A stretch of 64,000 nt of DNA, taken from Lacibacter cauensis (GTDB lineage: Bacteria > Bacteroidota > Bacteroidia > Chitinophagales > Chitinophagaceae). The stretch is taken from NCBI RefSeq assembly GCF_007830055.1, contig NZ_VLLE01000006.1:248001-312000 (forward strand). The letters run 5' to 3'. Positions 1 to 35,617 of the stretch are shown piece by piece. The position numbers and the translations under genes were made by a program. The notes beneath the pieces are model-generated. The model was not told the origin of the DNA, ran no database searches, and was given only the letters and a program-made list of their open reading frames with translations. Numbering within the stretch: the first letter of the stretch is position 1; the number at the start of each line of letters is the position of its first letter.

Positions 1-842
1 ACACGCCAGGGAAGCAACGGCGCTTTATCAATGGCATCAGTTGGGTTTGCACTCAACCCTTCCCACTGATAATAATCGAGGTTTACAATTTCATCCCAAT
101 CCTGCATTGCTTTTTGAATATCTGCAAAAGGGCGATCGATACAATATTGTCTTGGAACAACAAAAACCATATTGGCGCTACGCAACTCCAGCCATGGTAC
201 GCAGGAAGAACGGATTTGTGTTTGCCATGCAGCATTATCTGTTTGACCTAATACAAAATCGGGCGACTTCACCACGTTTGTAAACGACAGGTTTACAGGA
301 GTTGTAATGGGACGACCTGCAAAAATGTAAATATGTCCGCCATATAAATTCCGCAAATAATTACGGCCGGGATTTAATTGACTGCGTGTGTAAATAACCG
401 GATCACGTGGTGCGTTTTGAATGACTGAAAGATTATCCGTCCATGCACCAATCTGTACCGACAATGAATATTCGTTCTGCGGCACATCAATAATGACCAA
501 CTCTCCCGGTGCTGCATACAACCCTGTACTAAACTGGGGACTTGGCGGAACAGAAATACGCAACTCATCCTGCACATTGTTATAGTTCAGATTCATTGCA
601 AGATCAACTTTTATTCTCGGCTCCGAAGCACACACAAGGCCGGGAAAAACTCTCGCCTGTGCGTACTTGCTTGCATCAACATTTTTAATACTCGTATCGA
701 TGGTAATACTACTTACACTTGCACCATCGCCCGGTGTACCATCTTCAAAATCGTATGCATACTTTTTTCTGCAGGCAGTTACTGCCACTGTAAGCAACAG
801 TAAACAAACCGATAAACGCTTAACAAGCATAACAGCATTCAT
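1..842 (-). CDS. M60-type (enhancin-like) metallopeptidase lipoprotein, C-terminus outside window
   Basis: An open frame runs without a stop from the ATG at 840-842 to the window edge, giving about 280 residues. The start gives a lipoprotein signal peptide with the lipid Cys at residue 24 (AVTAC); the Met at 828-830 is an alternative. The body resembles the N-terminal part of Peptidase_M60 (PF13402): TGLYAAPGE, then QIGAWTD, then GRNYLRNLYGGHIYIF, the block that precedes the catalytic domain. The catalytic HExxH and its distal Glu would lie beyond position 1 and cannot be seen. Known M60 proteins of gut Bacteroidota act on mucin-type O-glycoproteins. It is the last visible gene of a 16-kb SusC/SusD operon, 44 bp after its neighbour, and the only recognisable hydrolase there. 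Family assignment is good; activity is inferred. Confidence 0.75.
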   Translation of the reverse strand, partial: MNAVMLVKRLSVCLLLLTVAVTACRKKYAYDFEDGTPGDGASVSSITIDTSIKNVDASKYAQARVFPGLVCASEPRIKVDLAMNLNYNNVQDELRISVPPSPQFSTGLYAAPGELVIIDVPQNEYSLSVQIGAWTDNLSVIQNAPRDPVIYTRSQLNPGRNYLRNLYGGHIYIFAGRPITTPVNLSFTNVVKSPDFVLGQTDNAAWQTQIRSSCVPWLELRSANMVFVVPRQYCIDRPFADIQKAMQDWDEIVNLDYYQWEGLSANPTDAIDKAPLLPWR

Positions 843-886
843 TTTATTCGTTTTATTATAACAGGTTTAATGAGTTGTTCTTTTTC

Positions 887-2647
887 TTAACCGCCACTTA
901 CATCGCTGTACGTAGGAATCCAGTTTTTTCCATCTAACCGCCATGAGCCGGGTACAGCAATTCCAAACCAGGCATAAATCTGTACTGCAACATCAACAGA
1001 GTTGGGAACTGTTTTGTATACAGGTTCCGATACCGGAGGACAAACATTGGCCGTAAGATCGTTGAAGCTTCCGGGTGAGTAACTGTCGAGTACAAGATCG
1101 TTCTGGTAAGCTGTCTGGTCTTTCATTTTAAATTGTCCGTTTTCGTTTACTACCGGAAAGCCTGGCCAGAATCCGAGCAGGTTATTGTAATACGTATTCG
1201 ATGCATCAATTGAAGTAGTACAGTACGTATTTGCAATGTATGTATCCGGTAACGCTACGTTGAAATAGCGGATATCGGTAATGTAGAAATTACCAAGCCC
1301 TGTAACATTATCGGGAGGAAGATTACCAATGGTAAGCGGTTGTGGACTGTTTAAGTTTCCATAACTGGTAATATCTCTTGTTGCAGCAGAAATACCTGAT
1401 GTATATAATACACCATCGGTATATGTATACACATTTCGGGCAGCACCTTCTTTTCTTACAACAACGGTAAGTGTATGCCACAAGCCATCAGCAATAACAT
1501 GTCCACGAATCTGCCGGTTACCCAAACCGGTTTGCCCAAAGTTTACCATCCAGTAATTTGCTTCTAGGAAAAATACCCACCCAACAACACCGCCGGAAAA
1601 AGAAGCACGCTTTGAAAGAAATGCCGGGTAGTAGTAATTGCCAGCCGGAATTTTTACTTTGCATTGCACCGTCATTTCGCTGGTTGCACCAATATCAAAT
1701 AACGACCCTGCAGTTACAGCTTTTGCTCTTCTGTTTTGCGATTGCGTACCTGAAAACTGTGGTGCTGTTCCGGTATAAGGAATCAATGCGCCTGGTCTTG
1801 TAAGTGCTTTACTGTTAAACCTTGGATTAAAACAAAAGAACATGGTATTGTGTCGTGTATCTTCAAAAGCAGACCATGAACCTGATGGATTGTAAACAGT
1901 ATTGCTTCCTTTGTTAGAAGTAATGATCACCATCCAGTTTTCTGAACTGAATGTAGAACGGCTTTTTAAAGCAGTTAAAATTTCACCAATGTAATTATCA
2001 ATTCTTAAGATCGCATCTTTGTAGTTTGCTGAATTGATACTATAAGAAGTAGCAGCCCCTGCCTTATCCACATCGTGAAACTGCGCCATCACCAAGTCGG
2101 AGTTTTGTGTACGCAACTCATTCTTCACTGCTTCTTTAACCGCAGCATCATCTTCATTAAACGACTCTTTTTTTGTTGCATCTGAAGCAAGTGCAGCTGC
2201 AAGTTCGTTTGAAGAAAAGAATGCAGTAGTACGTAAGCCCGGCTTTTCCTGTTTCATTCTTGTAAACAGCGAAGGATAATCTGCAAAACGATTATTACTG
2301 AAATCAGCACCCGTAACGTTATGCTTATTAACCCGCACACCTGTAAGCAGGTTAGCCCATCCCAGGCTATTGCTAACAGGAACATTGTCGTAATCACTCA
2401 ATGCATCCCATGAAAAGATTGAATAATCAACCAGGCTGTTCAGTACCGGCGGGTTTGCAACCTGCACCTGTGTACCTACAGCACCATCCACGATAATTAC
2501 AAGCGTTTTCGGATTTATAACTTTCGAAGAGTTGCCACCCGGTGCGTTTGCTTCTAAAGGATTCGGGAAAGACTTGTTACAGCTTGCTGCAAAATATCCT
2601 GCACCCGCAAAGAGTAAAAAAATCTTCAGATATTTTAAACGTTTCAT
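887..2647 (-). CDS. Alkaline-phosphatase-like/LamG lipoprotein (DUF4983 type), probably catalytically degenerate
   Basis: The 586-residue protein has a lipoprotein signal peptide (Cys23 after YFAAS). Residues ~48-290 follow the type I phosphodiesterase/alkaline-phosphatase fold: LVIIVDG with Asp54, a nucleophile-region segment ending NLLTG, and AQFHDVD. The block that normally reads SDHG, which supplies metal ligands, here reads TSNKG, so at least two ligands are missing. Residues ~310-470 look like a LamG/concanavalin-like beta-sandwich, and the C-terminal ~90 residues (YNNLLGFWPGF onward) match my memory of DUF4983. It lies between the DUF5008-like gene and the M60 gene in the operon. I infer a surface-exposed ligand-binding lipoprotein rather than an active phosphatase. 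The DUF number is from memory; the fold is clearer than the function. Confidence 0.65.
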   Translation of the reverse strand: MKRLKYLKIFLLFAGAGYFAASCNKSFPNPLEANAPGGNSSKVINPKTLVIIVDGAVGTQVQVANPPVLNSLVDYSIFSWDALSDYDNVPVSNSLGWANLLTGVRVNKHNVTGADFSNNRFADYPSLFTRMKQEKPGLRTTAFFSSNELAAALASDATKKESFNEDDAAVKEAVKNELRTQNSDLVMAQFHDVDKAGAATSYSINSANYKDAILRIDNYIGEILTALKSRSTFSSENWMVIITSNKGSNTVYNPSGSWSAFEDTRHNTMFFCFNPRFNSKALTRPGALIPYTGTAPQFSGTQSQNRRAKAVTAGSLFDIGATSEMTVQCKVKIPAGNYYYPAFLSKRASFSGGVVGWVFFLEANYWMVNFGQTGLGNRQIRGHVIADGLWHTLTVVVRKEGAARNVYTYTDGVLYTSGISAATRDITSYGNLNSPQPLTIGNLPPDNVTGLGNFYITDIRYFNVALPDTYIANTYCTTSIDASNTYYNNLLGFWPGFPVVNENGQFKMKDQTAYQNDLVLDSYSPGSFNDLTANVCPPVSEPVYKTVPNSVDVAVQIYAWFGIAVPGSWRLDGKNWIPTYSDVSGG

Positions 2648-2715
2648 GTATGACTGTTTTATAAGATCCAGGCATTACGCAATGCCGAATTATTTTTAAT
2701 AAAGTATCCGCTCTG

Positions 2716-4419
2716 TTAGTTATCCAACTTTAGTTTTACAATATCCCCTACCGGTTTACCATCGAACCTGTCGAAATCTCCAACCAGAATTACACCCGGT
2801 GTACCGTTGATTGTAATCTGTACCATGTCATTAATAATTCCACGAAACAAACCTGTGTTGTTGTAGCCAAGTGCCAGCGATCCATCGCTTTCCAGCACCA
2901 TAAAACCGGGGCGAACAACATATTTATCGGGCATTGTTACATAATTGTAATTGTAATGACTGAACGTACCGGCAACCAGAATTTTTCCATTGCTTAATTG
3001 TGCTGCAAACTCAGGAATACCGCCTAAGGTTTTTCCGAAACGGAAAGCTGCATCGGTAGTACCATCGGGGTTGATCATAACCACGCCGTTTGCATCCTGT
3101 CCGTTGTATTTTTTAAACGAACCAACCATCAAAATTTTATTTGTAACCGTATTGTAACGGATCTTGTTAATCGGCCCATCCGCTCCAACACCACCCGGGT
3201 TAAACGTAGCATCTACCAGCCCGTTGGTTGCATTGATGCGTGCAATGTAATTGGCAGTAGTTCCATTGTATGTAGTGAAGTTTCCAACAACAATTATTTT
3301 TCCATCGTTGAGTTGAACGGCATCATAAATAAATCCATTACCACCTTCATAGCCTTCTTTGGTTGCAAAATTGAAATTGAAAGTTGAATCAAATGCGCCG
3401 GTTGATTTCATGCGTATAAGCTGACGCACTTTAACCACATCGATCAACGGACCTGTTTTTGTTGAGCGCTCATAAAATGTACTTACATGGCTTGTGAAAT
3501 TTCCTACTACTGTAATATCGCCTGTTGTGGAGTTAACAAACATTTTACTGATGCCACCGGTTGTTCCTCCGTTTAAGGATGGTACCGTTGCCTGTCCATC
3601 ATTAGGTGCGTTTACCGGATCGGGATTGATAAGATCAACCACCTGTGTTTCCAATGCACCGGCTGATGTTAAACGTGTAATATTGTTGATACCGTTGGTT
3701 GTATCGTAACTGCCAAATGTACCTGCAAGCAAATACTGTCCGCTCGATTGTTGTATAACACTGCTTAAACTTCCTGCCACACCTGTTTTACCTACTTTCA
3801 TTTGATCTGACGATCCTGTTTTAAATTCACCATTTAAACCTACAACTACCATATTGGTAATAGGATTTGCAACGGTTGCGCTGTTTTGATAATTGCTGAA
3901 ACGGCCATACAGGAAATAGGAAGTGTTATCAGAACGCAGGAAGATACCTTTGATCTCACCATTTGAAACATAGGCATCGGTATTAAACGAAGCATCGATC
4001 GATACTTTTCCTTTAATAACAAAGGTTGGACCGAAGTAATACTCCCCATTAATGAGAACGTTGGCAGCACCTGTACTTGCGCCCAATGGCACTTTTACAG
4101 TAATTGCATTTTCTTCAACAGAAATAATTTCTGCTTCGGTAAGGTGTACAAAAAACTTAAACTGTCCTTCTTTACCTTTTAAACCTGTAACATTAAATTT
4201 TACAACAGAACCTTCGCTGCCAATTGCAGGATAAGGACCTCCATCGAGAAACTTCACCAACACTTTAGGCGGTGCAGGATAAACTTCAGCAGGCTCAACT
4301 TTCTGTTTTGTGCAGGAGGAAAAAAGTGCAGCTGCAAACAAACAACTGACTACTCCTAAAGCAAGGGTTGCGTGTTTTATTGTCATTGCAGAACTTCTTT
4401 TAATCGTTTGCTTTATCAT
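2716..4419 (-). CDS. DUF5008-like lipoprotein with delta-60/DUF5122 beta-propeller repeats
   Basis: This 567-residue protein is a predicted lipoprotein with Cys36 after LFSS. Starting at Met12 (4386) would give a more usual 25-residue signal, so that start is a real alternative. After the signal comes an IPT/TIG-like beta domain (residues ~48-135), then five or more repeats of the type 'GKIIVVGNFTTYNG...ARINATNG-VDATFNPG', typical of delta-60/DUF5122 propeller blades. Examples lie around the segments VVGNFTTYNG, MVGSFKKYNG, VAGTFSHYNY and LVGDFDRFDG. No catalytic motif is visible. It is 26 bp downstream of a FAS1 lipoprotein gene in the operon. It is likely a surface binding protein of the locus. 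The DUF5008 name for the N-terminal domain is from memory. Confidence 0.65.
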   Translation of the reverse strand: MIKQTIKRSSAMTIKHATLALGVVSCLFAAALFSSCTKQKVEPAEVYPAPPKVLVKFLDGGPYPAIGSEGSVVKFNVTGLKGKEGQFKFFVHLTEAEIISVEENAITVKVPLGASTGAANVLINGEYYFGPTFVIKGKVSIDASFNTDAYVSNGEIKGIFLRSDNTSYFLYGRFSNYQNSATVANPITNMVVVGLNGEFKTGSSDQMKVGKTGVAGSLSSVIQQSSGQYLLAGTFGSYDTTNGINNITRLTSAGALETQVVDLINPDPVNAPNDGQATVPSLNGGTTGGISKMFVNSTTGDITVVGNFTSHVSTFYERSTKTGPLIDVVKVRQLIRMKSTGAFDSTFNFNFATKEGYEGGNGFIYDAVQLNDGKIIVVGNFTTYNGTTANYIARINATNGLVDATFNPGGVGADGPINKIRYNTVTNKILMVGSFKKYNGQDANGVVMINPDGTTDAAFRFGKTLGGIPEFAAQLSNGKILVAGTFSHYNYNYVTMPDKYVVRPGFMVLESDGSLALGYNNTGLFRGIINDMVQITINGTPGVILVGDFDRFDGKPVGDIVKLKLDN

Positions 4420-4445
4420 GAAAAAATGCTTTCGCTTTTTTAAAA

Positions 4446-5159
4446 TCAGTAAATAATTCCTTTATCAAATACATCTTCGATAAACTGCCCGGTTGCAAAA
4501 CCAAAGAAATGATTGGGATAGTTTAACACATGTACATACCCGTTTTTAGGAGCTACGTTTACAGAAGCTACAATTGCCGAATACCAACTGTTATAATCTC
4601 TTGGTGCCGATACAGAAGGAATAAACGAAATCATCAACTGCCTGTAACCTGCATATTTTACACCGCCGGCATCATTGTAGATAACACCAATGTTCATAAT
4701 GTCGCCGAGATAAGAGCTATAGATCTGCCCGGGGTAAGCCGACAGGTTTCCGGGATCGAGTTGCGGGAAGTCATTCATGGAGCGAGAGCTTTTGAAGAGG
4801 TAACGGCAGAGTTGCTTCTTCCACACCTCTGGTTTTATCTGCTCCAGCTTTGTAACACGTCGTTGGCCTTTTTCATCAAGCTTCGCATTTAATACACGGA
4901 TTGTATTACTGATACAGGAATCGTTGGGCGCAAAAAAGGTAATGGTTTCAGTACTAAATACATTTTCCATGCCTGCAATACGAATAACCTTCAGCAACGA
5001 ATCCCAGCTTTTTGGTTTCGATTTCAAATAATCCAATACCGTACCATCATAATCAGGTGTATGCTTTCCGGTGTTGGTGAAATAATCTTTTTTCTGACAA
5101 CCAACTGCAATGGTTGTAAGGATAACAGCAACGATGAGGAAACGATTCATATATTTCAT
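4446..5159 (-). CDS. Fasciclin (FAS1) domain lipoprotein
   Basis: The 237-residue protein has a lipobox signal (Cys21 in TIAVGC) followed by one FAS1-like domain. The H1 motif is visible as ETITFFAPNDSCI at about residues 72-84, preceded by a 'YLKSKPKSWDSLLKVIRIAGM' type helix. FAS1 domains mediate adhesion and binding to polymers or proteins. The H2 region near the C-terminus (NGYVHVLNY) is the usual 'NGVIHVID' equivalent. It follows a SusD gene by 32 bp and is followed by the DUF5008-like gene. A second FAS1 lipoprotein sits at the equivalent place after the other SusC/SusD pair, so these look like duplicated modules. The binding partner is unknown. Confidence 0.75.
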   Translation of the reverse strand: MKYMNRFLIVAVILTTIAVGCQKKDYFTNTGKHTPDYDGTVLDYLKSKPKSWDSLLKVIRIAGMENVFSTETITFFAPNDSCISNTIRVLNAKLDEKGQRRVTKLEQIKPEVWKKQLCRYLFKSSRSMNDFPQLDPGNLSAYPGQIYSSYLGDIMNIGVIYNDAGGVKYAGYRQLMISFIPSVSAPRDYNSWYSAIVASVNVAPKNGYVHVLNYPNHFFGFATGQFIEDVFDKGIIY

Positions 5160-5191
5160 CTGCTTTGTTTTATTTTATTACAGTTCGTTTT

Positions 5192-6748
5192 TTATTGCCA
5201 GTATGTATTTAACGTCATACCAGGATTGTTGATCAACGCCGATGGATGAATAGGCCATGTCCATGCTCCTGCTTTAAATTGTTCTACTGTACAGTGGTAG
5301 CCAAATTTGTATGATGGATCGATGATGCGTTTTGTACGTACTACATCAAACCAGTAATGACCTTCGCCCAGTAACTCACGGCAGCGCTCATAGAAAATAT
5401 CTGTTTTCAATTCTGCTCCTGTACTTGTAATAGGTGCAGCCGCTGCCCTATTGCGTACAATATTTAATTTTTCCTTTGCCTTGCCATCGTTACCAAGATT
5501 TGCCAATGCTTCTGCATGCAATAAAATAGCATCCGTGTAACGGAAGATGATCTGGCTCGCATCAAACGAAGTACCATCTACCGAATTGGGATCACGGTTT
5601 ACAAAAAACTTCAGCATTTTAAAATTCCTGTTACCGCTATACATGGTCGATACATCAAACCAATAATCGGTACGCTTATCGGCCTGCCCTACCGGGTAAA
5701 TTGTTTCCATGAACTTTGTATCGTAACTGATGTACGGATGTGTTGGATCGGGGGCCAAACGATTATAATAAACCAGGTCGTAATAGTAAGACCATCCAAA
5801 CGATTCGCCATAGTTTGCATTCTGTGGTACTTCAAACAAACCTTCTTTCGAACGCCCTTTAAAGATTTCACCATTTCGTTCTAATGGCAACAACGCATAG
5901 GCACCACCATTTTCGTTGTACAGTTCGTCGCCTAATGCATCCACAGCTTCGTAGTAAGCTTTCTCATTACCTGTATCAAACCCTGCAAGCCACATGTTAA
6001 TGTGCATCAGTAATGCAAGTGCCGAACCACGCATTCCTCTTACAGCAACAAACACAGGATCTTTATAGGTCCATGGCAAATCATCCTTCACAGCCATCAA
6101 ATCTTCACGGCACTTCTTCAACACCTCTACCATTGGCATACGTTTCAACGGCGCACTGTGGTAGGCATCGGTATAATATGCAACATCGCCCCACTGACGA
6201 ACCATCAGGAAATAAGCCATGTTACGGATGAAGATTGCTTCTGCTTTGTACTGTCTTTTTTCTTCTGCTGTTAATGAAGGATCTGGTACGCCGTCAACAC
6301 GATCAACTGCAATGTTTGCTGCTGCAATTACTTTATAAAACTGATCCCATTGGCTAAACCGAATCATATTAAACACACGGTACCAGTTGTTACCGCCACT
6401 CGGAGCATCAACAAATAATGCTTTTATGTTATTGTTTGATAAGTTGGCAACATAGGTACGTCCCCAACCTATCTCTGTATTTTCTTTTGCCATGCCCCCA
6501 CGTAAATCGCCGCTGAAAGCAAAGAAGGGAAAGTTGAACGAGCTGGCATCGGCTTTCATATCGAGCCTTGCAACAGATTTGCGCAGGAGCTCGTACATAC
6601 CATTCGTATAGTTTTCCAGATCAGTTTTTGTTTTCCAGAAATTATTACCCGATAACGCATTCGGCGGATCGAGACTTAAAAACTTTTTGCAACCACTACC
6701 CACAAGGAGCAATGTGGTAACTACAAGTATGCTGATAATACGTTTCAT
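5192..6748 (-). CDS. SusD/RagB-family nutrient-binding outer-membrane lipoprotein
   Basis: SusD-like surface lipoprotein that would cap the SusC channel encoded just upstream (6771-9929). I chose the ATG at 6748, 22 bp after the susC stop. The upstream Met at 6784 would overlap susC and extend the n-region with charged residues. From 6748 the protein has 518 residues, a signal ending LLLVGSGC, and the usual start of the mature part (KKFLSLDPPNALSGNNFW). The alpha-helical SusD C-terminal hallmark is present: ERCRELLGEGHYWFDVVRTKRI-like pattern, and the family's closing 'WPIHPSALINNPGMTLN' segment. Ligand specificity cannot be read from sequence; the neighbours suggest a glycoprotein or peptide. 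Confidence 0.93.
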   Translation of the reverse strand: MKRIISILVVTTLLLVGSGCKKFLSLDPPNALSGNNFWKTKTDLENYTNGMYELLRKSVARLDMKADASSFNFPFFAFSGDLRGGMAKENTEIGWGRTYVANLSNNNIKALFVDAPSGGNNWYRVFNMIRFSQWDQFYKVIAAANIAVDRVDGVPDPSLTAEEKRQYKAEAIFIRNMAYFLMVRQWGDVAYYTDAYHSAPLKRMPMVEVLKKCREDLMAVKDDLPWTYKDPVFVAVRGMRGSALALLMHINMWLAGFDTGNEKAYYEAVDALGDELYNENGGAYALLPLERNGEIFKGRSKEGLFEVPQNANYGESFGWSYYYDLVYYNRLAPDPTHPYISYDTKFMETIYPVGQADKRTDYWFDVSTMYSGNRNFKMLKFFVNRDPNSVDGTSFDASQIIFRYTDAILLHAEALANLGNDGKAKEKLNIVRNRAAAAPITSTGAELKTDIFYERCRELLGEGHYWFDVVRTKRIIDPSYKFGYHCTVEQFKAGAWTWPIHPSALINNPGMTLNTYWQ

Positions 6749-6770
6749 CTTTTTCGTTTTTCTTTTACAA

Positions 6771-9700
6771 TTAAAACTGAACATTTAAACCAACTGCATA
6801 ACTCCTTGCATTGGGATAACCACCGGAATTATCTCTGCCCAACTGCGTAACCAGTTCCGGATCGGGGCCACTGTAATTTGAAAATGTATAAACGTTGTTT
6901 ACCGTTAATGTTAAGCGGCAGGATGTCATATGCAATCTGCTGATCATTTTCCTGTCGAGATTGTATGCAAGCACAACGTTGTTAATTTTCCAGTACGAAC
7001 CATCTTCAAGGAACAAAGTTTGGTTACTGCGGAATGGTTGCATTACACCAGCTCTTCTGAAATCGAATGGATTTGGATATTGTGCATTCGGAGTACCACT
7101 TCCTTTATCGAAAGCTGATGGTTTCCAGTAATTGTATTGATCAATTGGCACCAATGCACCCGGTGTTGTAGGACGGCTGAAGTTTTGCATGGTTTGCGAC
7201 AAGGATGCATTCAGCAGATCACGAAACAAGGTATACGATGCATTGATGTTTAACTGGAAGTTTTTATACTGCATCTGCGACAGAATACCACCTGTTACTT
7301 TTGGTATTGGATTACCAATCGGCAACAGATCTTTTTCATCAATGATATAGTCGCCGTTTACATCTGTCCAACGTGGATCACCACCCTGGAAATAATAACC
7401 GGTACCTGAACCCAACTGCTGACGTTTACCTGTTGCAATGTTTACAGGCACATCGCCCGTGTTTGCATATACGCCTTGCGTATGATAAATAAGATTGGAA
7501 ATTGCACTGCGGCCTATTCTGTAAACAATCGGCACATTACTTCCTCCGTCTGTAATTTCCTGGCGAATCTGGCGCAGGTTATCAGGCAGTTTGGTTAGTA
7601 TTTGTTTGTTGATGGCACCGTTTACTGAAAGCGTCCATTGAAACGGTTTGCTTTGTTTAAACATACGCATCATAGCCGACCATTCCATACCATAGTTTAC
7701 AAGACTTACTGCATTTGTCTGTAATTCGTTAAAGCCACTGGTGTTCGCCAGTTGAATACGCATGATCTGGTTATCAATAGAACGGTAATAGGTTTCGTAG
7801 GTTAATTGTAAAGCATTATTGAAGAGACCTACCTCAACACCTCCATTTGTTTGTGTTTGTGTTTCGGGTAAAAAGTTTTCATTGGGTACCGTTGCATAAT
7901 CAATAGCAACAGTTGGATTATTGTTATATGGTAAACCAACAATATAACGTCCATACGTATCGAAGATGCTACCTGTTGGTTTAATATTACGGCCCCACGA
8001 TACTCTTGCAGAACCATAACTCAACCAGCTAACTTTCTCCAGCCATTTTTCACGGTTAAAATTCCAGCGTGCGCTTACAGATGGATTTTGCGAATATGGT
8101 TGCTTTGAACCTGTTGTTGACAAACCATCGAAACGGAAATTGAAATCGAGTACATATTTCCGATCGTAGTTGTAAGAAACCGATCCACCGTAACCATGCT
8201 GTCTTGTTTCACGGATATTATTCAATGTACCGCCACGAGAGCTTGCCCAACCGTAACCGATTGGTCCGGTTATCTGATCATTTGCTGTGCGATCAAGACT
8301 GATCACGTTTGCCTGGAAACCATAGGTATTAATTTCATTAAACACATAGGCATTCAGATTGTGCAGGTTATACAATGTTTTGGTAAAGTTGATCAGCGAC
8401 CTGTTATATAAAGTATATGTTCGGTCGTTATAGCTGTACGACTCTGATGATCCGTTACTGAGAAATGAAGGAGTAAACCTGTCGGCTGTACCGGAAATAA
8501 AGTTGTAGCTAAGCAGGTTACCAAAACGAATACCTTTAATTGGCTCGTACGATATGTCGAGGCTTGTAGCAATATTTGCTGTTTTGTTATTGTTGATTAC
8601 TCTCGATGCCGCCAATGCGCTGTTGTTCTCCGAAAACAATGATGGCGGCGGCAATAACGAAGAGGATGAACCTCCGCTTGCTATACCTGTTTGGATCAAT
8701 CCTACACCACTACCGTTTTGCTTTTGCCCAAGTGAACTCGACAGGTTCATTTGTACACGCAGCTGGTTGGTTGGTGCATACTGTGCATTCATGCTAAGAC
8801 CATAACGTTTAAACCCTGTGTTCTGCACAATACCGTTTTCCTGGTAATAGTTGAGGTTGGTTTTATAGTTGAACCGATCATCGCCACCACGTATACTCAG
8901 GTTGTGCTGCTGGTTATAAGTGGTACGGTAAAAATAATCCTGCCAGTTTGTGGCGTTGTTGTAATACGGATTAAGGCTATCGGATAAAAACGGGGTTTGA
9001 TTGATCAGCGCCTGTGCCGCAGCGGCCGATGTATCATAATCTAAAATGGTACGTATGCGGAACAAACGTTCCTCTTTACCACCAATTACATCACGCAGAC
9101 GGGGCGGAGCTTTTACAAAGAAGTTAGTTGAGTATTGTACAATCGGCACTTTCGATTTACCTCTGCGTGTGGTAACAATAATAACACCGTAAGCAGCTCT
9201 TGCACCATATACAGAAGTGGCAGCAGCATCACGCAATACTTCCATCTGCTCAATATCTTCAGGTGGTATTAATGCCAACGGATTAATACCGGCACCTCCA
9301 CCCTGGAAACCATATTCGTAATTTGTATTTAAATCTACAGGTACACCATCAATAACAAACAAGGGTGATGTTGGTGTTAAGAAACCATCACTGCTTACGT
9401 TAATACTGGAAACACCACGTAAGTTAATAGTGCCCATACCACCCGGCGAACCGGAGTTGTTTTGCACGTTTAACCCGGCCACTTTACCCTGCAACAATTC
9501 CACAACGTTCGATACAGGTACATCCTGTAAAGCCTTACCGCTGATAACAGCACTTGAGCCTGTAGCTGTTTCTTTTGTTTTTTGGCGGAAGCCCTGTATA
9601 ACCACTTCCTGCATGGTATTATCCTTTACAGACATAGTGATTGATACAGAAGATGTGCTTGCCATAAATGTTTTGCGAACAGCAGCGTAGCCGGAGTGTG

Positions 9701-9929
9701 TAAATACAAGCTCGGCACCTGCATCGATAGTTACAGTAAACGCACCGTTTGCATCGGTAGTTGCAATTGTTTTAGAAGGCTTGCTTGTAGAAACAGTTAC
9801 ACCCTGCATTGCGGTTTGTTGTGCATTGTCTTTTACAACACCCTTTACAGTAATTTTATTCTGTGCGTGCGTAGGCACAGCAAAAAGAAGCAGGCAAGCC
9901 AGCACGCCTATACAGGGTAACCATTTCAT
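6771..9929 (-). CDS. SusC/RagA-family TonB-dependent outer-membrane transporter
   Basis: The start at 9929 gives MKWLPCIG..., a Sec signal peptide ending THAQ; an in-frame Met at 9965 would add 12 charged residues. The 1052-residue protein has a carboxypeptidase-regulatory-like N-terminal domain (ITVKGVVKDN...GVTVSTSKPS, residues ~25-105), a TonB-box-like EVVIQGF, a plug with LLQGKVAGLNVQNNSGSPGG and INLRGVSSI, then a 22-strand-type barrel ending in an aromatic residue (SYAVGLNVQF). It is the energised import channel partner of the SusD gene that follows. It is 48 bp downstream of the DUF5007-like gene in the same operon. Family is certain; the substrate is unknown. Confidence 0.95.
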   Translation of the reverse strand: MKWLPCIGVLACLLLFAVPTHAQNKITVKGVVKDNAQQTAMQGVTVSTSKPSKTIATTDANGAFTVTIDAGAELVFTHSGYAAVRKTFMASTSSVSITMSVKDNTMQEVVIQGFRQKTKETATGSSAVISGKALQDVPVSNVVELLQGKVAGLNVQNNSGSPGGMGTINLRGVSSINVSSDGFLTPTSPLFVIDGVPVDLNTNYEYGFQGGGAGINPLALIPPEDIEQMEVLRDAAATSVYGARAAYGVIIVTTRRGKSKVPIVQYSTNFFVKAPPRLRDVIGGKEERLFRIRTILDYDTSAAAAQALINQTPFLSDSLNPYYNNATNWQDYFYRTTYNQQHNLSIRGGDDRFNYKTNLNYYQENGIVQNTGFKRYGLSMNAQYAPTNQLRVQMNLSSSLGQKQNGSGVGLIQTGIASGGSSSSLLPPPSLFSENNSALAASRVINNNKTANIATSLDISYEPIKGIRFGNLLSYNFISGTADRFTPSFLSNGSSESYSYNDRTYTLYNRSLINFTKTLYNLHNLNAYVFNEINTYGFQANVISLDRTANDQITGPIGYGWASSRGGTLNNIRETRQHGYGGSVSYNYDRKYVLDFNFRFDGLSTTGSKQPYSQNPSVSARWNFNREKWLEKVSWLSYGSARVSWGRNIKPTGSIFDTYGRYIVGLPYNNNPTVAIDYATVPNENFLPETQTQTNGGVEVGLFNNALQLTYETYYRSIDNQIMRIQLANTSGFNELQTNAVSLVNYGMEWSAMMRMFKQSKPFQWTLSVNGAINKQILTKLPDNLRQIRQEITDGGSNVPIVYRIGRSAISNLIYHTQGVYANTGDVPVNIATGKRQQLGSGTGYYFQGGDPRWTDVNGDYIIDEKDLLPIGNPIPKVTGGILSQMQYKNFQLNINASYTLFRDLLNASLSQTMQNFSRPTTPGALVPIDQYNYWKPSAFDKGSGTPNAQYPNPFDFRRAGVMQPFRSNQTLFLEDGSYWKINNVVLAYNLDRKMISRLHMTSCRLTLTVNNVYTFSNYSGPDPELVTQLGRDNSGGYPNARSYAVGLNVQF

Positions 9930-9977
9930 TGCAGTTATTTTTTTGCTTTTGTTTATACTTAACATGTGTGTCCTGTA

Positions 9978-11030
9978 TTAATCGTTGGTGAATTTTGGAT
10001 TATCGTTTTTAAACGCAAATACTATTTCCCAATCGCCCGGTTCATAAATGGCAAAGTCGAGCCCGAGTACTGCAGTTTCTCTGCCTCCATTAAAACCAAG
10101 ACGAGAATAACTGAATCTTGTTTTTGCACGACGGCCATCAGAAGTGGTGAAGCGTGTAGGAACTTCCACAGCAGGTATTGGATAAGCCATTTTATAGGTA
10201 ACACCTGTTGCGGTTATTTGCTTTTCAAAACCATGCACCAGGTTGTTCCAGTCTGTTTCAGCAAATTTTGCAGGATCAATCGGGTTGTACAGCGTATCAA
10301 GAAAACGGAAGGTTAAGGTGTTGGTTGCAGGCACACCTGCTTTTACTATTTTGCGTATATACACATCAACATCATTGTACGAAAGATAACGGTTGGTATT
10401 TGCTCCTTTAATGTTGGTAACAACAGAAGCATATACACCATTCGATACAGGTTGCCCTGTTGATGCGTTGTAGTTAGAAGGTTCGTAAGGGCGCTCCTTC
10501 AACGGCATCAGTTTAATATTACGATAATACCTGCGGCCACCCGAATTCGACAACTCTACATCAAACAAATAACCTGAATCGGGTTGCGAACGTACAAATG
10601 CCGAACGAGCTTCTGCCCACATGGTAAATGCTCCTGAGTGTGGCCCTATTTCAAACAACGGACGGTATTGCTTTACACGTTTTGCTTCAATTTCTGCAAC
10701 CGATTTTTCAGTTCCATCATAAGCTTCTTTCCAAACCATCACGGGAAAAACATCGGTAAGTTCCGGTGCAGGATCGCCATTACGTCTGCGTGGATTTACA
10801 ATTTTAAAATCGGAAGGATAGGTAGTACTGCCCTGGTAAAAATTATCAGTAAAAAATGTTGTACGTCCCAACACCGGTTGATACGTATCGATGGTGTATT
10901 GCGAATCGGCTCCTACCGTTTCTCTTTCCTTTGGTAGGTATTTTTTACAGGCACTTGCAGCCAACAGTACAGCAACTGCAAGCATGTAGTAACGGCGTTT
11001 ACGCACAACTTTTTGTATTTTCTTATTCAT
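9978..11030 (-). CDS. DUF5007-like surface lipoprotein of the SusC/SusD operon
   Basis: The 350-residue protein has a basic n-region, a hydrophobic stretch and a lipobox (Cys28 in LLAASAC). The rest is mostly beta, without a recognisable catalytic motif. The recurring words FTMWAEARSAFV and VELSNSGGRRYYRN and the closing segment 'EPGDWEIVFAFKNDNP' fit my memory of DUF5007, a Bacteroidota lipoprotein family seen next to SusC/SusD genes. It lies between a FAS1 lipoprotein gene (40 bp upstream) and the second SusC gene. By position it could be a surface glycan- or protein-binding protein (an SGBP analogue), which is inference. Confidence 0.6.
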   Translation of the reverse strand: MNKKIQKVVRKRRYYMLAVAVLLAASACKKYLPKERETVGADSQYTIDTYQPVLGRTTFFTDNFYQGSTTYPSDFKIVNPRRRNGDPAPELTDVFPVMVWKEAYDGTEKSVAEIEAKRVKQYRPLFEIGPHSGAFTMWAEARSAFVRSQPDSGYLFDVELSNSGGRRYYRNIKLMPLKERPYEPSNYNASTGQPVSNGVYASVVTNIKGANTNRYLSYNDVDVYIRKIVKAGVPATNTLTFRFLDTLYNPIDPAKFAETDWNNLVHGFEKQITATGVTYKMAYPIPAVEVPTRFTTSDGRRAKTRFSYSRLGFNGGRETAVLGLDFAIYEPGDWEIVFAFKNDNPKFTND

Positions 11031-11070
11031 CGTTATCTTCTGTTTTAGAGAAAATGAGATTTACTAGTGC

Positions 11071-11757
11071 TTATCGTTTATTAACCCGTTTAATAAAATC
11101 ATTTCCGAATCCAAAATCATGACCGGCGGGTAAGAGGTGCACAATTCCGTTTGTTGTTTTAATATCTACAGTAATGGTGTTAACCCTTACCCAGTTACGT
11201 GTAAAAATGGAGTTACGGGGATCGCTGAAGGTGATTGCCTTGGGGCCACCACCTAAAAAGCCCGATGCATTGGTTGCTACATACTGCAACTGCATATTGT
11301 AATCGTAGCGGAAAGAAGCATAGAGTTTACCATCAGTAAATCCTTTCAGGCTATCAGTATTTTGCAAACCTGGAATAATATAGCGGCAAACAAATGTGTC
11401 GAGCAATGCAGAATCAATTGTTGCAAGCGACAACTTCGGCATAGCAGGAATAGAATCTTTACGAGCCTGGTTAATATTAAAAAGCGCCAGTTCAAAACTT
11501 CGGTTATTCGCTGCAAACAGTGTAATACTGCCCGACTTAAGTGCATCGGTTAAACCTGTTAACCGGCTTGCTACAAATAACAGCGAATCATACACACCTG
11601 TTTGTGCTGTAAGATATTCGTAGGTAGATCCTTTAAACGTACCTGCTGTGTTTGTATAATTGTAGTACTCTTTGTTGTTCTTGCTGCAACCTGCCAGGCT
11701 TGCTGCAGTTAACACACATACTGCAATCACTAAAAAATTATTTCTGATAAAGCTCAT
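11071..11757 (-). CDS. Fasciclin (FAS1) domain lipoprotein
   Basis: The 228-residue protein carries a lipoprotein signal (Cys24 in AASLAGC) and one FAS1-like domain. The H1 motif is SGSITLFAANNRSFELAL (about residues 75-92), in which the usual Pro of 'FAPTN' is replaced by Ala. The H2-like segment near the end is TNGIVHLLP. The helix before H1 (GVYDSLLFVASRLTGLTDAL) matches the equivalent part of the FAS1 protein at 4446-5159. The gene follows a SusD gene by 50 bp and precedes the DUF5007-like gene. It is probably an adhesive or ligand-binding component at the cell surface. Confidence 0.75.
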   Translation of the reverse strand: MSFIRNNFLVIAVCVLTAASLAGCSKNNKEYYNYTNTAGTFKGSTYEYLTAQTGVYDSLLFVASRLTGLTDALKSGSITLFAANNRSFELALFNINQARKDSIPAMPKLSLATIDSALLDTFVCRYIIPGLQNTDSLKGFTDGKLYASFRYDYNMQLQYVATNASGFLGGGPKAITFSDPRNSIFTRNWVRVNTITVDIKTTNGIVHLLPAGHDFGFGNDFIKRVNKR

Positions 11758-11807
11758 TGTTACGTTTTTACTTTTCTGAAAACATTTCGTTTATACCAAC
11801 AACCTGC

Positions 11808-13385
11808 TTATTGCCAGTAGGCATTTTGTGTAATCTTTGCATTCCTGTTTAACACATCCTGCGCTATCGGCCAGTAAATGCCACCTTTATCTATCAATTC
11901 ATTAAATGCAGCATTGGTACGTTTTAATTTATTGAAGCGAACCTGATCGTACCATCTCCAACCCTCGCCCATTAATTCTCTTCTGCGCTCTGCAAAAACT
12001 TCTGTTAACAGATCACGTGATGGTGCAGGCGATATAGATGCAAGACCTCTTACACCTCTTACTGCATTCAGTTCCTGGTACGCAGCATCTGTTTGTCCTA
12101 ATACTGCCAATGCTTCTGCACGGAGTAATTTTATTTCTTCGAGGCGTGTAAATACAATAGATGAATTAAATACAGCAAACTGTCCGGCATTACCAACATT
12201 ACCATCTACCACTCTTATCTTTTTAAATACAGGAACCGCTGCGCTGTAATTTTCGAAGTAGTTGGTATAAATGGTTTGTTGTACAGAAGCAGGGTCTACA
12301 CCAAAACGTTGATCGGTTCCGCCGTTACTCCTGGGGAATATAGCTGCGATTGAATCTTTTGGAACATAGATTTCGGGCAGCGGTTTCGACATTGGATACA
12401 AGGTTGTATTTGCCAAGGTGAGCTGCTCAATATGTCCTTCCGAAGTGGTTTCGCCAAGGTTTCGGTTAAAGCTGAAACCAAGCAGCTGGTTGTAATTATT
12501 ATTTACGCCACTGTTGAACAGTGTTGTTACAAGATTGCTTGTACTTACTAAAGAGAGATTACTTTTTGAAGCATTGTTAACGATATACTCAGTATAAACA
12601 GCAGCATCAATATAACGGCCCTGCCATGCAGCCACATGTGCAAGAATTGCATACGCTGCCAAACGTGTAACCGGCGCATTTAACCATTGTGAAGAATTAT
12701 AACCATAATAATTGTTTGGATAAAGTTGCGCAGGATCAACACCGGAATAAAGGAATGGAAGACTTGGCGCTACCTGGATCAACTCCTGCTCTGCAAAAGA
12801 AAGCACAGCATTCTGGCTTGTACGTGGTAATGCATCAAAACTTCCTTCTTTTGTATTAACGATCAACGGAACATCGCCCCAAATGCGTACCATGTAGAAA
12901 TAAGTGAATGCACGAATAGCTCTTGCCTGTGCAACATCCAGTTTGTAATACGATTCGGTATAACGCTGATCTGCTTTACAACCACCCACCCGTTCAATAA
13001 ACAGATTACTTGCATTTATTACTGCATAAAACCTGCGCCAGTTTGTAACGGCATCAATTGTTGGAAACGATGCATTGAGTTTACCATCAATCACTGCCTT
13101 CAGATCGGTTCTGTAAACTGAAAGAAAATCTCCGTTACGCAGCTCGCCCCACATCCAATGCGCATTGTTATCTGCGAGTGCTGCACGCAACAAACCATAC
13201 AGCCCCATCAAACCACTTCTTGCATCTTCGTACGAATCCCAATGTCCCAGTTCATCGGCCTGGCGAGACGATTTGATGTCCAGTTGTTTATTACAAGCTC
13301 CCATGAAAAGCATCAATACTGTAGCAAGCAGCACTTTTTTTCCAATCTGCATTGCTTTGTTTGTTGCTGTTGAAATCATCTTCAT
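11808..13385 (-). CDS. SusD/RagB-family nutrient-binding outer-membrane lipoprotein
   Basis: SusD-like protein paired with the SusC gene at 13413-16364, 27 bp upstream. The listed start gives 525 residues. Met12 (start 13352) would give a compact 20-residue lipoprotein signal ending LFMGAC and may be the true start. The C-terminal SusD hallmark is clear: ERRRELMGEGWRWYDQVRFNKL-like, followed by 'YWPIAQDVLNRNAKITQN'. The TPR-like helical core around 'KLLRAEALAVLGQTDAAYQELNAVR' is also typical. It differs well beyond simple duplication from the SusD at 5192-6748, so the two modules probably bind different parts or kinds of ligand. Confidence 0.92.
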   Translation of the reverse strand: MKMISTATNKAMQIGKKVLLATVLMLFMGACNKQLDIKSSRQADELGHWDSYEDARSGLMGLYGLLRAALADNNAHWMWGELRNGDFLSVYRTDLKAVIDGKLNASFPTIDAVTNWRRFYAVINASNLFIERVGGCKADQRYTESYYKLDVAQARAIRAFTYFYMVRIWGDVPLIVNTKEGSFDALPRTSQNAVLSFAEQELIQVAPSLPFLYSGVDPAQLYPNNYYGYNSSQWLNAPVTRLAAYAILAHVAAWQGRYIDAAVYTEYIVNNASKSNLSLVSTSNLVTTLFNSGVNNNYNQLLGFSFNRNLGETTSEGHIEQLTLANTTLYPMSKPLPEIYVPKDSIAAIFPRSNGGTDQRFGVDPASVQQTIYTNYFENYSAAVPVFKKIRVVDGNVGNAGQFAVFNSSIVFTRLEEIKLLRAEALAVLGQTDAAYQELNAVRGVRGLASISPAPSRDLLTEVFAERRRELMGEGWRWYDQVRFNKLKRTNAAFNELIDKGGIYWPIAQDVLNRNAKITQNAYWQ

Positions 13386-13412
13386 GATTACTGATTATTT
13401 TAAATGATTCTA

Positions 13413-16364
13413 TTATAATTCTATTCTAACACCTGCTATAACTGTTCGTGAAAGCGGTAATCCATAACCTGTATAAATACCGTTGTAGTTCACCAGTTCA
13501 GGATCATCGCCTTTGAAAGAGGTAATGGTTAAGAGGTTGGTGCCTGTTATGTAAAACACACAACTGCGCAGCGATTTCTGTTTTGCGTTTGCTTTTGCCA
13601 GCTCGTAACTGAGCGTTACAGACCGCAGCTTCAAGAAAGAAGCATTATCGAGGAACAGGCTTTGATCGAGACGGTAAGGCACTACCGAACTCCATGGATT
13701 GTACATGGGATAGCCCGACAAATCCATTTTCTTTTGCCAGAATGTAATTTCTTTTACAGAGTTGATATTATTACTCGCTTCTACATTAATAAAATCGAGA
13801 CGTGATGATGCATACTGATTTAATACCTGGTGGCCCAATGCTGTATAAAACTGCATATCGAGGGTAAATGCTTTATAAGCAAGTGTTGTACTGAAACCAC
13901 CTGTAACTTTTGGCAAATAGTTCCCTGTTACGAGTTTATCCTCATCGTTGATGCGGAAATCATTGTTTAAATCTAACCACCAGGGATCGCCCATTGTAAC
14001 AGGCACACCACGATAGTTCAATGCTACGCCTGTTTGCGGGTTAACGGTGATCTGGCTTTGACGTTTATACGTGCCGAAATTTTTCAGTAACCAGAATGCG
14101 TCGATACGTTTACCAACAACCAGTTTATTGTTACCGATGATGAGCTCGTTTAAACCACCGGGCAAGCCAACAAGTTTGTTTCTGTTATAATTAAAGTTGG
14201 AAGAAATACTCCAGCTGATACGATGGTTCTCTGCAGGAAGAATATTGGCAAACATGGTAAAGTCGATACCGTTGTTGCGCACATGCAGTCCCGATTTGTA
14301 AGCACCGGTATAACCCCATTCTGTTGGTACAGGTACAGGCAACAGCATCTGTTTATCTTCTCTGTTATACACATCAATACCAAATTTGAGATTGCTGTTC
14401 AAGAAAGCCATCCGCACAGCAAGGTTCGACTGTTCGCTGCGTGCCCAGGGTATACCATAACCAACCCATCCACTGGTATACGGTCTTGATATGCCCGGAA
14501 TACCTGCATAAGAACCCAATGTTGGTTCATTACCCCAACCCATATCTACACGGTATTGAGCACCTGCATTAAAACGGTCGTCATTCAACAATCTTCCTAA
14601 ACGTGCCCACGATGCGTTTACGGTAAATGCATTCATGTTGGTTAATGCATCGCCATACTGTTTCTTCACATCCCATTCAACGCCACCGGAAAAATTCGTC
14701 GTCCAGCGGTTATCCGGTTGCATGTTCGATGAGCCATCCCTGCTTACTACAGCATGCAGCTTTACTACATCATCAAAGGAGTATGTTGCTTTACCCGAAA
14801 AAGAAGCCAACGCCGAACGCATTTTACTTGGGAAATAATACACTCTGAATGCAGCAGGCAGTAAATAGTCGCTTCCGGTAGCACCATTTACAACATTGAT
14901 CTTCACGAAATCGTTAGGACCATTGTAAGCATAGGCATAATCGTACTTATAAGTATCGGCCATAAAATTCTGGCCTGCTTCGAGCATTAATTTTTGTTTA
15001 CGGTTTACATCAATTTGGTAGGTTGCCGTATTACTTACTACCATCCGTTGATTGTAGCCGAAATAATTTGACACGAAATTGTTCTTCTCTAATAAAGTAG
15101 TTGGCCAGAAAACATCACGAATACCTTCATTATAATCGAATGCAATACGGCCACGGTAACTGAATTTGTTAAGGTTGGCTGATAAAGCAAAATAACCTTG
15201 AATAACGTTAGATGTATTATTATCGATTACCTTATTAAACTCGTTCAGATAGGCACTGTATAAATTTTTATTAGGTGTAAGCGGGTTGGTTAAATCGGGG
15301 ATATACCGTTGTTCTGCGAGGCGGTCACGTATGTTACGGTTACGTGTACGTTCTAAACGGTTATAGTTAAGCATGCTCGATACCATTAACCATTTAATGG
15401 GAGCAGCATTAATAAAGAACGATCCTGTGTAGCGGTTGATGGCTGTACGATCGGCACTGGATGCATTTTTTGTAGCACTTCCGAAGAACCTGAAATTAGC
15501 ACGCTCCGATCCGCCTGTTAAGCTCAGATCAAGATTGTACAGCGCAGCATTATCGAAATACTTATCGCCCCAGTTTGCCGGACCATAATAATCAGCATTT
15601 GTTGAATCTCTTAAGTACGGCGGATAATTCAACCTGTCTGCGATTGTACCAAAACGATCGTAAAATGGTTTGCGGAAATTATTTTCGTAAGCTGCATTTA
15701 CAGGCGTATAGGATGGCTTCATTGCATAACCATAATAACTGTTTACCGTTATTTCTCTGTAACCGGAATGTGCATTCTTTGTTGTAATCCAGATAGCACC
15801 GTTTGCTGCAACCGGACCCAAAGCCGCAAGTGTAACCGGGTCTTTAATAATTTCAATCGATTCAATATTATCGGGACTAATGGCTGCAAGCAGATTGGTA
15901 GCAGGGCCAATACGGTTAAAATCGTACTTCTGTATTTCGTAAGCAAAAGGATTATCCTGTGCTAGCGGAATACCATTCAAAAAAATTGCTGCCTGCTGAT
16001 CGAACAATTCACGTTTGCTGAGTAATGGAGAGGAGATGCCACGAATAAACACATTCTGCTCGCTGCCAGGTTCACCACTTGGCTCCTGCACATGCACACC
16101 TGCAGCGTTACCTTTCACTATTTGCTGTAACGAAATAACCGGCTGCTTGAGCGCATAACGCAAAGGCACAAAGCTGATTTCTTTAAACCCTGCTGTTGCA
16201 GTTTCTACTTTAATACCATTGGTAACAAGCATTTGTACAGAGTCGCCTTTGAGAGAGGCTGAAGTAGTGTCGGATTGGGCACTTGCATTACCAATAAAAG
16301 AAAACAGGAATGCACCAACAATAAGCTTCTGTGCTGTCGCAGACAGAATCATTCGCTTCTTCAT
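13413..16364 (-). CDS. SusC/RagA-family TonB-dependent transporter lacking the usual N-terminal extension
   Basis: First gene of the 16-kb operon. It has 983 residues, with a signal peptide ending GNASAQ at residue 30. The mature N-terminus is short. The plug begins almost at once, with VISLQQIVKGNAAGVHVQEPSG and NVFIRGISSP at residues ~75-115, and the carboxypeptidase-regulatory-like domain found in the other two SusC proteins here is absent. A plausible TonB-contact segment (IKVETATAGFKEISFVPLRYAL) precedes the plug. The barrel ends with an aromatic-poor 'RTVIAGVRIEL', unlike the usual terminal Phe. Expression likely starts at the promoter 312 bp upstream. The family is sure; the reduced N-terminus could change energisation or regulation. 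Confidence 0.92.
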   Translation of the reverse strand: MKKRMILSATAQKLIVGAFLFSFIGNASAQSDTTSASLKGDSVQMLVTNGIKVETATAGFKEISFVPLRYALKQPVISLQQIVKGNAAGVHVQEPSGEPGSEQNVFIRGISSPLLSKRELFDQQAAIFLNGIPLAQDNPFAYEIQKYDFNRIGPATNLLAAISPDNIESIEIIKDPVTLAALGPVAANGAIWITTKNAHSGYREITVNSYYGYAMKPSYTPVNAAYENNFRKPFYDRFGTIADRLNYPPYLRDSTNADYYGPANWGDKYFDNAALYNLDLSLTGGSERANFRFFGSATKNASSADRTAINRYTGSFFINAAPIKWLMVSSMLNYNRLERTRNRNIRDRLAEQRYIPDLTNPLTPNKNLYSAYLNEFNKVIDNNTSNVIQGYFALSANLNKFSYRGRIAFDYNEGIRDVFWPTTLLEKNNFVSNYFGYNQRMVVSNTATYQIDVNRKQKLMLEAGQNFMADTYKYDYAYAYNGPNDFVKINVVNGATGSDYLLPAAFRVYYFPSKMRSALASFSGKATYSFDDVVKLHAVVSRDGSSNMQPDNRWTTNFSGGVEWDVKKQYGDALTNMNAFTVNASWARLGRLLNDDRFNAGAQYRVDMGWGNEPTLGSYAGIPGISRPYTSGWVGYGIPWARSEQSNLAVRMAFLNSNLKFGIDVYNREDKQMLLPVPVPTEWGYTGAYKSGLHVRNNGIDFTMFANILPAENHRISWSISSNFNYNRNKLVGLPGGLNELIIGNNKLVVGKRIDAFWLLKNFGTYKRQSQITVNPQTGVALNYRGVPVTMGDPWWLDLNNDFRINDEDKLVTGNYLPKVTGGFSTTLAYKAFTLDMQFYTALGHQVLNQYASSRLDFINVEASNNINSVKEITFWQKKMDLSGYPMYNPWSSVVPYRLDQSLFLDNASFLKLRSVTLSYELAKANAKQKSLRSCVFYITGTNLLTITSFKGDDPELVNYNGIYTGYGLPLSRTVIAGVRIEL

Positions 16365-20022: not shown

Positions 20023-20076
20023 GGTTGTTTTTATTTAACTGCTGTTCTACAGCAGCGTTATCGAATGTTTACTATT

Positions 20077-21555: not shown

Positions 21556-21721
21556 TCTTCCTTTTTTGAGTTTAAATAAAGGGGGAACGAGAAACATTCC
21601 CCCGTGCTGTTGATTATGACCCTAAACAAACTAACATGAGAAAAGGAGCTTCTACCTTACCTTTTCGAGTATTATGCTTAATTTTTAATTGCTGTTTTCT
21701 GCTGTTCATTTTTATATTATT

Positions 21722-23836: not shown

Positions 23837-23847
23837 TCTTACAACTA

Positions 23848-27183: not shown

Positions 27184-27204
27184 GGTTGATAATTATGCAA
27201 TCGC

Positions 27205-28653: not shown

Positions 28654-28715
28654 GTTGTGGTAAACTGCTACAAGTTAATAATCAAAATTCTTCTTCGTTT
28701 TGTTTTGTACAGTTA

Positions 28716-28755: not shown

Positions 28756-28779
28756 AGTTTATCTACAATTTGCTAAGCT

Positions 28780-30564: not shown

Positions 30565-30582
30565 ACAATGAAAATTTAAACG

Positions 30583-35357: not shown

Positions 35358-35378
35358 CAACTAACAGCATATAAAATA

Positions 35379-35408: not shown

Positions 35409-35414
35409 ACTCTG

Positions 35415-35588: not shown

Positions 35589-35617
35589 CAATTTTTTTAT
35601 CAGGTTTTGGGGCTTAT

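Follow-up and report, generated by a model that had tools for sequence, protein, structure and literature searches.

An invariant eight-gene core with two SusC/SusD pumps and an accessory M60 peptidase cassette in Lacibacter cauensis: a candidate importer of protein-linked glycans

What does a bacterium take up through an operon that encodes two different SusC/SusD pairs, fasciclin-type (FAS1) lipoproteins and an M60 peptidase, and in which no carbohydrate-active enzyme (CAZyme) is recognised? Such an operon occupies the left end of a 64,000-nucleotide stretch of the Lacibacter cauensis genome (contig NZ_VLLE01000006.1, positions 248,001 to 312,000), referred to here as the window. A preliminary description of this DNA proposed an undescribed surface system for the capture and import of protein or glycoprotein fragments. 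In this paper we describe a Sus-type uptake operon whose first eight genes form an invariant core that encodes two distinct SusC/SusD pumps; they are followed by a cassette of two type I phosphodiesterase-like (PDE) genes flanking the M60 gene. We consider it somewhat more probable than all other readings together (roughly 0.55) that the operon is a two-pump importer of fragments of an O-glycosylated protein polymer, of the arabinogalactan protein, mucin-like or proteoglycan-like kind, in which retired enzymes serve as binders.

The operon comprises eleven minus-strand genes in the order SusC1-SusD1-FAS1a-DUF5007-SusC2-SusD2-FAS1b-DUF5008/propeller-PDE1-M60-PDE2, separated by gaps of -14 to 68 bp (Table 1). 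The gene types, strand and location given in the preliminary description hold, with two corrections: it had counted ten genes with gaps of about 20-70 bp, and it had placed a LamG domain in the M60 protein, which is instead built of M60-like_N, Peptidase_M60 and F5/8 type C domains, LamG being part of the PDE-like protein. CAZymes just left of position 1 had been named as a finding that would speak against a dedicated protein system; none was recognised in the eleven operon genes or just left of them. Both SusC proteins exceed the TIGR04056 cut-off (368.25 bits), SusC1 falling under that of the signature TIGR04057, and both SusD proteins exceed the SusD_RagB cut-off (23.1 bits), so that the operon has the SusC/RagA-type transporter and SusD by which a polysaccharide utilisation locus (PUL) is recognised. 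By eye, each of the nine other than the SusC proteins carries a lipobox-like Cys near its N-terminus.

The conservation of this arrangement was examined in loci collected by DUF5007 peptide patterns in named genomes, where 151 stretches matched, 88 were confirmed and the best 80 were kept. They come from Chitinophagaceae and Sphingobacteriaceae, in genera such as Arachidicoccus, Mucilaginibacter, Pedobacter, Chitinophaga, Niabella, Sphingobacterium and Pinibacter. When a gene split into two neighbouring frames is counted once (SusD1 of locus L034, DUF5008 of L082), the first eight genes, from SusC1 to DUF5008 (hereafter the octet), are present whole, in the same order and on one strand in 78 of the 80 loci, which bears out the conserved gene order that the preliminary description had suggested looking for. 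The two incomplete octets are L048, cut off by a contig end, and L068, where the search turned up no DUF5008 in the interval from FAS1b to M60. Gaps within the core (n=557) have a median of 14 bp, and 551 of them are 100 bp or less. Because these loci had been picked by DUF5007, the reverse search was run with a SusD1 profile in 59 relatives, with up to 25 candidates scored per genome; nine matches of at least 586 bits are the nine places that have a full DUF5007, and the next match scores 233 bits. Although Lacibacter FAS1b taken alone lies under the Pfam cut-off (15.9 vs 22 bits), the FAS1a profile matches 81 of 81 FAS1b proteins. Seven of the core proteins diverge together across the 78 loci, their distance matrices correlating at r 0.87-0.96 (FAS1a was excluded because not all 78 loci were over the score limit), and the compared proteins differ on average at 53-63% of positions. 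That eight genes and two transporter pairs keep one order despite such divergence suggests that their products form one physical assembly.

The two pumps differ. An N-terminal CarboxypepD_reg-like domain is absent from 77 of 77 SusC1 proteins and present in 81 of 82 SusC2 proteins, and in a midpoint-rooted tree 27 SusC1, 27 SusC2 and 11 other SusC sequences fall into three pure groups; SusC1 and SusC2 are separate clades. A single-module cousin, with SusC, SusD, a FAS1b-like gene and a distant DUF5007 (88 bits), was seen at L135:560-10973, preceded by an extracytoplasmic function (ECF) sigma gene and followed by a GH43 gene, and is possibly a picture of the module before duplication. Pedobacter frigoris (G487:C15) has DUF5007 genes at 356102 and 379530, about 23 kb apart (L056 and L139). 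Two M60 genes, PL8 and GH29 come after the second one, and the arrangement suggests two octets in tandem, the second of them mapped in part.

A lead to the substrate comes from the SusD proteins. The top solved relative of SusD1 is 3hdx (E 3.8e-133; the SusD1 model matches it at 44% identity) and that of SusD2 is 3iv0 (E 9.9e-101); in both cases the next match lies far behind. The titles of these structures give NP_809182.1 and NP_809186.1 of Bacteroides thetaiotaomicron, which are four accessions apart, and Lacibacter SusD1 and SusD2 are likewise four genes apart. BT3015 and BT4244 are NP_811927.1 and NP_813155.1 (PMC3267712), which gives accession-minus-gene-number offsets of 808912 and 808911; an offset of 808912 or 808913 is expected near gene 270, and from this numbering we infer that the two SusD relatives are BT0269 or BT0270 and BT0273 or BT0274. 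These would lie in BT0262-90 (PUL5), for which arabinogalactan is the primary substrate (PMC3243724) and in which the adjoining susC-like gene BT0268 has an arabinogalactan-responsive promoter (PMC6874557). In the published product list, BT0269-75 include a SusD, a hypothetical protein, DUF5007, a second SusD and DUF5124, and BT0277-79 carbohydrate-binding and alkaline-phosphatase-family products (PMC10434189). As far as this gene list allows a comparison, the B. thetaiotaomicron locus resembles ours in these products and in its two SusD proteins, which appear to be the solved relatives, and differs in having a regulator, BT0267, in its assignment to arabinogalactan and in listing DUF5124 for DUF5008. 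The SusD proteins would be an orthologous pair with octet spacing of the BT0262-90 type, and B. thetaiotaomicron may itself have an octet. With both SusD proteins pointing by their solved relatives into an arabinogalactan locus already in print (PMC3243724), the system is not wholly undescribed.

The M60 protein stands in a different relation to the core. In Lacibacter it scores 142.8 bits for Peptidase_M60 (PF13402; cut-off 25.8), 59.9 for F5_F8_type_C and 47.7 for M60-like_N, and its zinc site is intact (HELGH, 14 residues, E). M60 proteins are metal-dependent mucin-cleaving peptidases with the pattern HEXXHX(8,28)E, and of the four in B. thetaiotaomicron three have HEXXH (PMC3267712). The preliminary description singled out this protein as the only recognisable hydrolase; in relatives it is an accessory. 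Within the DNA fetched, 49 of the 80 loci have an M60 gene, mostly as PDE1-M60-PDE2, and in 31 it was not found (one of which, L048, ends early). Of 60 aligned M60 sequences, counted as sequences and not as operons, 48 retain HExxH. Among the other 12 rows, four do not cover the site, six belong to L068 and to five Niabella operons and read xEIGR, and two are from family f30. The M60-like proteins without HExxH (L066, L067, L077, L078, L080 and L068; L195 and L197 in the f30 genomes G705 and G590) show xEIGR or no trace of the motif and are apparently pseudo-peptidases, in two groups. M60 as the core of the system was rejected, being patchy across loci and motif-dead in these two groups. In Arachidicoccus ginsenosidivorans (L132), M60 and PDE2 were each seen as two separate frames.

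The PDE-like proteins also appear to have left catalysis behind. Both exceed the PF01663 cut-off of 23 bits (PDE1 33.7, PDE2 35.3). A type I phosphodiesterase is expected to have an Asp-His pair at what we take to be the catalytic metal motif positions, which were compared with a single homolog that looks intact (L103); 5 of 74 PDE1 and 0 of 49 PDE2 proteins retain the pair. The loss is not complete: 63 of 74 PDE1 and 49 of 49 PDE2 still have the first Asp, and 37 of 49 PDE2 the His. To judge from these residues PDE1 is probably catalytically dead, and a role of the PDE-like proteins as active phosphatases is unlikely, the Asp-His pair being mostly lost though some metal residues remain. Conserved families of retired enzymes of this kind are candidate glycan binders. 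For the DUF5007 protein, the structure model (mean pLDDT 91.9) gave weak tandem-Ig fold matches only, and a named fold was rejected (best Foldseek match E 7.3e-4, TM 0.19).

The genes that follow the octet were mapped at 70 places, which are not a subset of the 80 loci: some are further DUF5007 places in the same genomes (L131, L137, L139, L151, L187), and close species recur. A downstream chain was ended at a gap of more than 350 bp or at a gene on the opposite strand, and CAZyme labels were given by similarity to Pfam-scanned proteins; the label FASa on proteins of about 480 amino acids is probably wrong, that of L088 being BT_3987-like. Fifty of the 70 maps have M60, and at least 12 of these run contiguously into CAZymes or sulfatases, as do at least 4 of the 20 maps without M60; both counts are lower bounds and leave out the GH genes of L131 and L137. 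That the lack of CAZymes marks a dedicated protein system, as had been supposed, is not supported. Scanned examples of this cargo are GH20 (L184), PL8 with GH29 (L139), LacZ-type GH2 and GH27 (L153), GH88 (L160) and PL8 (L144); Pedobacter nyackensis (L180) has a GH109-like gene, a sulfatase and GH123, and GH92, GH95, GH20, GH29 and GH2 are found farther downstream or in operons without M60. Many of these enzyme families act on glycoprotein or proteoglycan glycans. Other continuations are PDE1 with a BT_3987-like (DUF1735-type) protein and two PDE1 copies; L120 has a rhamnogalacturonase/epimerase-type protein among its downstream genes, and three octets (L133, L134, L136) have no recognised enzyme downstream. 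An identification of DUF2264, seen in the cargo, as the arabinogalactan glucuronidase GH154 was considered and set aside, no paper having been found with both names.

Arabinogalactan, mucin-type glycans and chondroitin all occur O-linked to protein. Two pumps, many binders and an optional O-glycopeptidase fit a protein-linked glycan polymer, and the operon probably works as follows. The nine lipoproteins would act at the cell surface, where FAS1, DUF5007, the DUF5008-propeller and the apparently dead PDE/LamG proteins would keep hold of a polymer that is linked to protein and O-glycosylated; M60, where active as predicted here, would cut the polypeptide at glycosylated sites; the two SusCD pumps would import the glycopeptides or glycans; and enzymes encoded elsewhere would finish them. 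The likeliest substrates would be glycoproteins of the arabinogalactan-protein, mucin or proteoglycan kind, and for this plant-polymer-degrading genus we favour arabinogalactan protein. The Lacibacter genome has 19 GH43 matches, 17 of them over the cut-off, a set that shows a plant-polymer degrader and says nothing direct on this operon.

Several observations weigh against this importer of O-glycosylated protein polymers. The Lacibacter operon has neither a regulator nor a CAZyme adjacent, and 38 of the 50 M60 maps have no contiguous CAZyme by the similarity test. The peptidase is present in only the 49 of 80 loci given above, and the f30 operons, whose layout is nearest to that of the B. thetaiotaomicron locus, are among those with a motif-dead M60. 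In B. thetaiotaomicron, the response is to larch arabinogalactan, and a mutant lacking the regulator BT0267 still reached 78.9% of the growth of the wild type (PMC3243724, Table 2); the BT0269-75 list has DUF5124 where DUF5008 is expected and names no SusC (PMC10434189).

A broader version, which we regard as tentative, makes the octet an ancient machine with two obligate pumps that handles O-glycans on polypeptides generally, from plant arabinogalactan proteins to mucins and chondroitin proteoglycans. Retired enzymes would be its surface receptors, pseudo-PDE proteins in nearly all loci and pseudo-M60 proteins in two groups, and SusC1, without the N-terminal regulatory-like domain, would share the work with SusC2 in one fixed assembly, one importing for example glycan and the other glycopeptide.

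The main rival reading, which we think rather unlikely, is that the operon simply imports polysaccharides of the galactan type (type II arabinogalactan and other Gal/GalNAc glycans). Protein would then not be the target, and M60 would have been retained because its fold is useful or because it brings some side benefit. The assignment of BT0262-90 to arabinogalactan and the responsive bt0268 promoter (PMC3243724, PMC6874557) point this way, as do the loss of HExxH from the f30 M60-like proteins, the GH43 genes adjoining them, and the octets that have no M60. Against it, 48 of the 60 M60 sequences keep HExxH, and GH123, PL8, GH20, GH92 and sulfatase genes near relatives' octets are atypical for arabinogalactan.

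The version first proposed, in which M60 would be the central enzyme of a system dedicated to capturing and importing fragments of protein or of animal-type (mucin) glycoprotein, now appears unlikely. It accounts for the intact M60 motif in a Lacibacter operon with no CAZyme, for PDE1-M60-PDE2 being the commonest continuation, and for the known activity of M60 proteins on mucins (PMC3267712); it is hard to reconcile with a core that is kept without M60 or with a motif-dead one, with contiguous CAZymes in at least 12 of 50 M60 maps, and with the arabinogalactan link in B. thetaiotaomicron. What is supported of it is a capture-and-import operon of conserved order with an intact M60 site and no CAZyme; M60 as the centre of the system is not. 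A surface adhesion or attachment complex that does not serve feeding, suggested by two FAS1 lipoproteins, by an all-beta DUF5007 weakly similar to tandem-Ig adhesion domains and by octets with no recognised enzyme after them, is very improbable, since two TonB-type pumps and their SusD partners occur in all 78 full octets and co-diverge with the rest, and the f30 operons are preceded by a hybrid two-component sensor-like gene (by eye), as is usual for nutrient loci.

Three further Bacteroides loci offer comparisons, each as far as the available text of the papers describes it. BT3010-BT3017 of B. thetaiotaomicron shares with our operon SusC/SusD, an M60 gene (BT3015), a phosphatase-annotated gene and the lack of CAZymes, and is induced by mucosal glycans or mucus (PMC11992087, PMC13176161); this M60 locus without CAZymes (BT3013, BT3015) has been published before (PMC11992087), which tells further against novelty. 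It differs in that one SusD is named and no FAS1, DUF5007 or octet is mentioned in that text, and its SusD BT3013 (7bll) is only a distant match, at rank 48. The mucin locus BT4240-50 has a surface M60 O-glycopeptidase beside a SusC/D pair and a surface binder with a CBM32 domain (PMC11992087), and differs in its single SusC/D pair, its own CAZymes and its kinase. In the chondroitin locus BcPUL25 of Bacteroides caccae, a locus for a protein-linked glycan, M60-like genes are read by the authors as possibly targeting proteoglycan; it carries PL35, GH88 and GH109, and the available text reports no octet (PMC12269599). No paper was found that joins M60, fasciclin, SusC and SusD, or M60, 'arabinogalactan protein', peptidase and Bacteroidetes, a weak negative since most subscription papers were out of reach. 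Four papers combine two of DUF5007, DUF5008, DUF4983, fasciclin and SusD; of these, PMC10434189 is a gene list. The present analysis gives a substrate lead for a gene block that no paper found treats as a unit, and connects M60 glycopeptidases with glycoproteins of plant type in addition to those of animals.

The spread of the block was followed by means of DUF5007. Among 14 genomes of the genus, including that of L. cauensis, 5 gave a match, and among 59 relatives 9 did, G035 weakly. A phylum sample of 395 genomes yielded 5, of which G035 and G316 matched weakly, and the 251 genomes of family f30 yielded 3. The eleven-gene layout recurs in two f30 genomes, G705 and G590, preceded by a hybrid-sensor-like gene, similar to those of hybrid two-component systems (HTCS; by eye), which in G590 is split into two frames; on the divergent side in G705 is a pair of GH43 genes, of which one also encodes a ricin-type lectin domain. 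It is also found in G060 (family f22), adjoining an alpha-fucosidase-like gene (by eye). In G705, further small genes follow the octet and its cassette, one at L195:5648-6673, which has no Pfam match, and two beyond it.

Table 1. Genes of the operon, with positions in the window unless the contig prefix C5 is given; scores in bits.
Feature	Position	Strand	Profile matches and relatives
SusC1, TonB-dependent transporter, no N-terminal CarboxypepD_reg-like domain, 983 aa	13413..16364	-	Plug 45.1; TIGR04056 374.5
SusD1 lipoprotein, 525 aa	11808..13385	-	SusD_RagB 68.3; top solved relative 3hdx
FAS1a lipoprotein, 228 aa	11071..11757	-	Fasciclin 25.9 (cut-off 22)
DUF5007 lipoprotein, 350 aa, predicted all-beta	9978..11030	-	DUF5007 277.5
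SusC2, TonB-dependent transporter with CarboxypepD_reg domain, 1064 aa	6771..9965	-	Plug 72.3; CarbopepD_reg_2 39.3; TIGR04056 643.2
SusD2 lipoprotein, 530 aa	5192..6784	-	SusD_RagB 86.1; top solved relative 3iv0
FAS1b, FAS1-like lipoprotein, 237 aa	4446..5159	-	Fasciclin 15.9 (under cut-off 22)
DUF5008 and DUF5122 propeller lipoprotein, 567 aa	2716..4419	-	DUF5122 104.8; DUF5008 26.0 (cut-off 25.4)
PDE1, type I phosphodiesterase fold, LamG and DUF4983 lipoprotein, 586 aa	887..2647	-	Phosphodiest 33.7; DUF4983 32.4; Laminin_G_3 30.3
M60 peptidase lipoprotein, 674 aa	C5:246818-248842 (first 280 aa at window 1..842)	-	Peptidase_M60 142.8
PDE2, second PDE/LamG/DUF4983 gene, eleventh in operon	C5:245067-246791 (wholly left of window)	-	PF01663 35.3

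No regulator of the HTCS or ECF/anti-sigma type adjoins the Lacibacter operon, whose upstream neighbour is a divergent, RecN-like gene at 16953-18605 (by eye). A promoter scan gave 38 sites vs 43.0 in shuffles, with a sigma-70 pattern that is ill-suited to the host phylum, and a terminator scan gave 18 vs 16.0. Left of PDE2 are convergent genes, by eye for a zinc-ribbon protein and a Nif3-like protein, with LysR-type regulators farther out. Beyond the RecN-like gene, window positions 18694-33732 hold xylose-isomerase-like, FGGY kinase, DsbH-type, FG-GAP/ASPIC and vanadium-peroxidase-like genes and another SusD/SusC pair, and a LacI-type regulator, tRNA-Pro and DnaA are clustered at 34329-37051.

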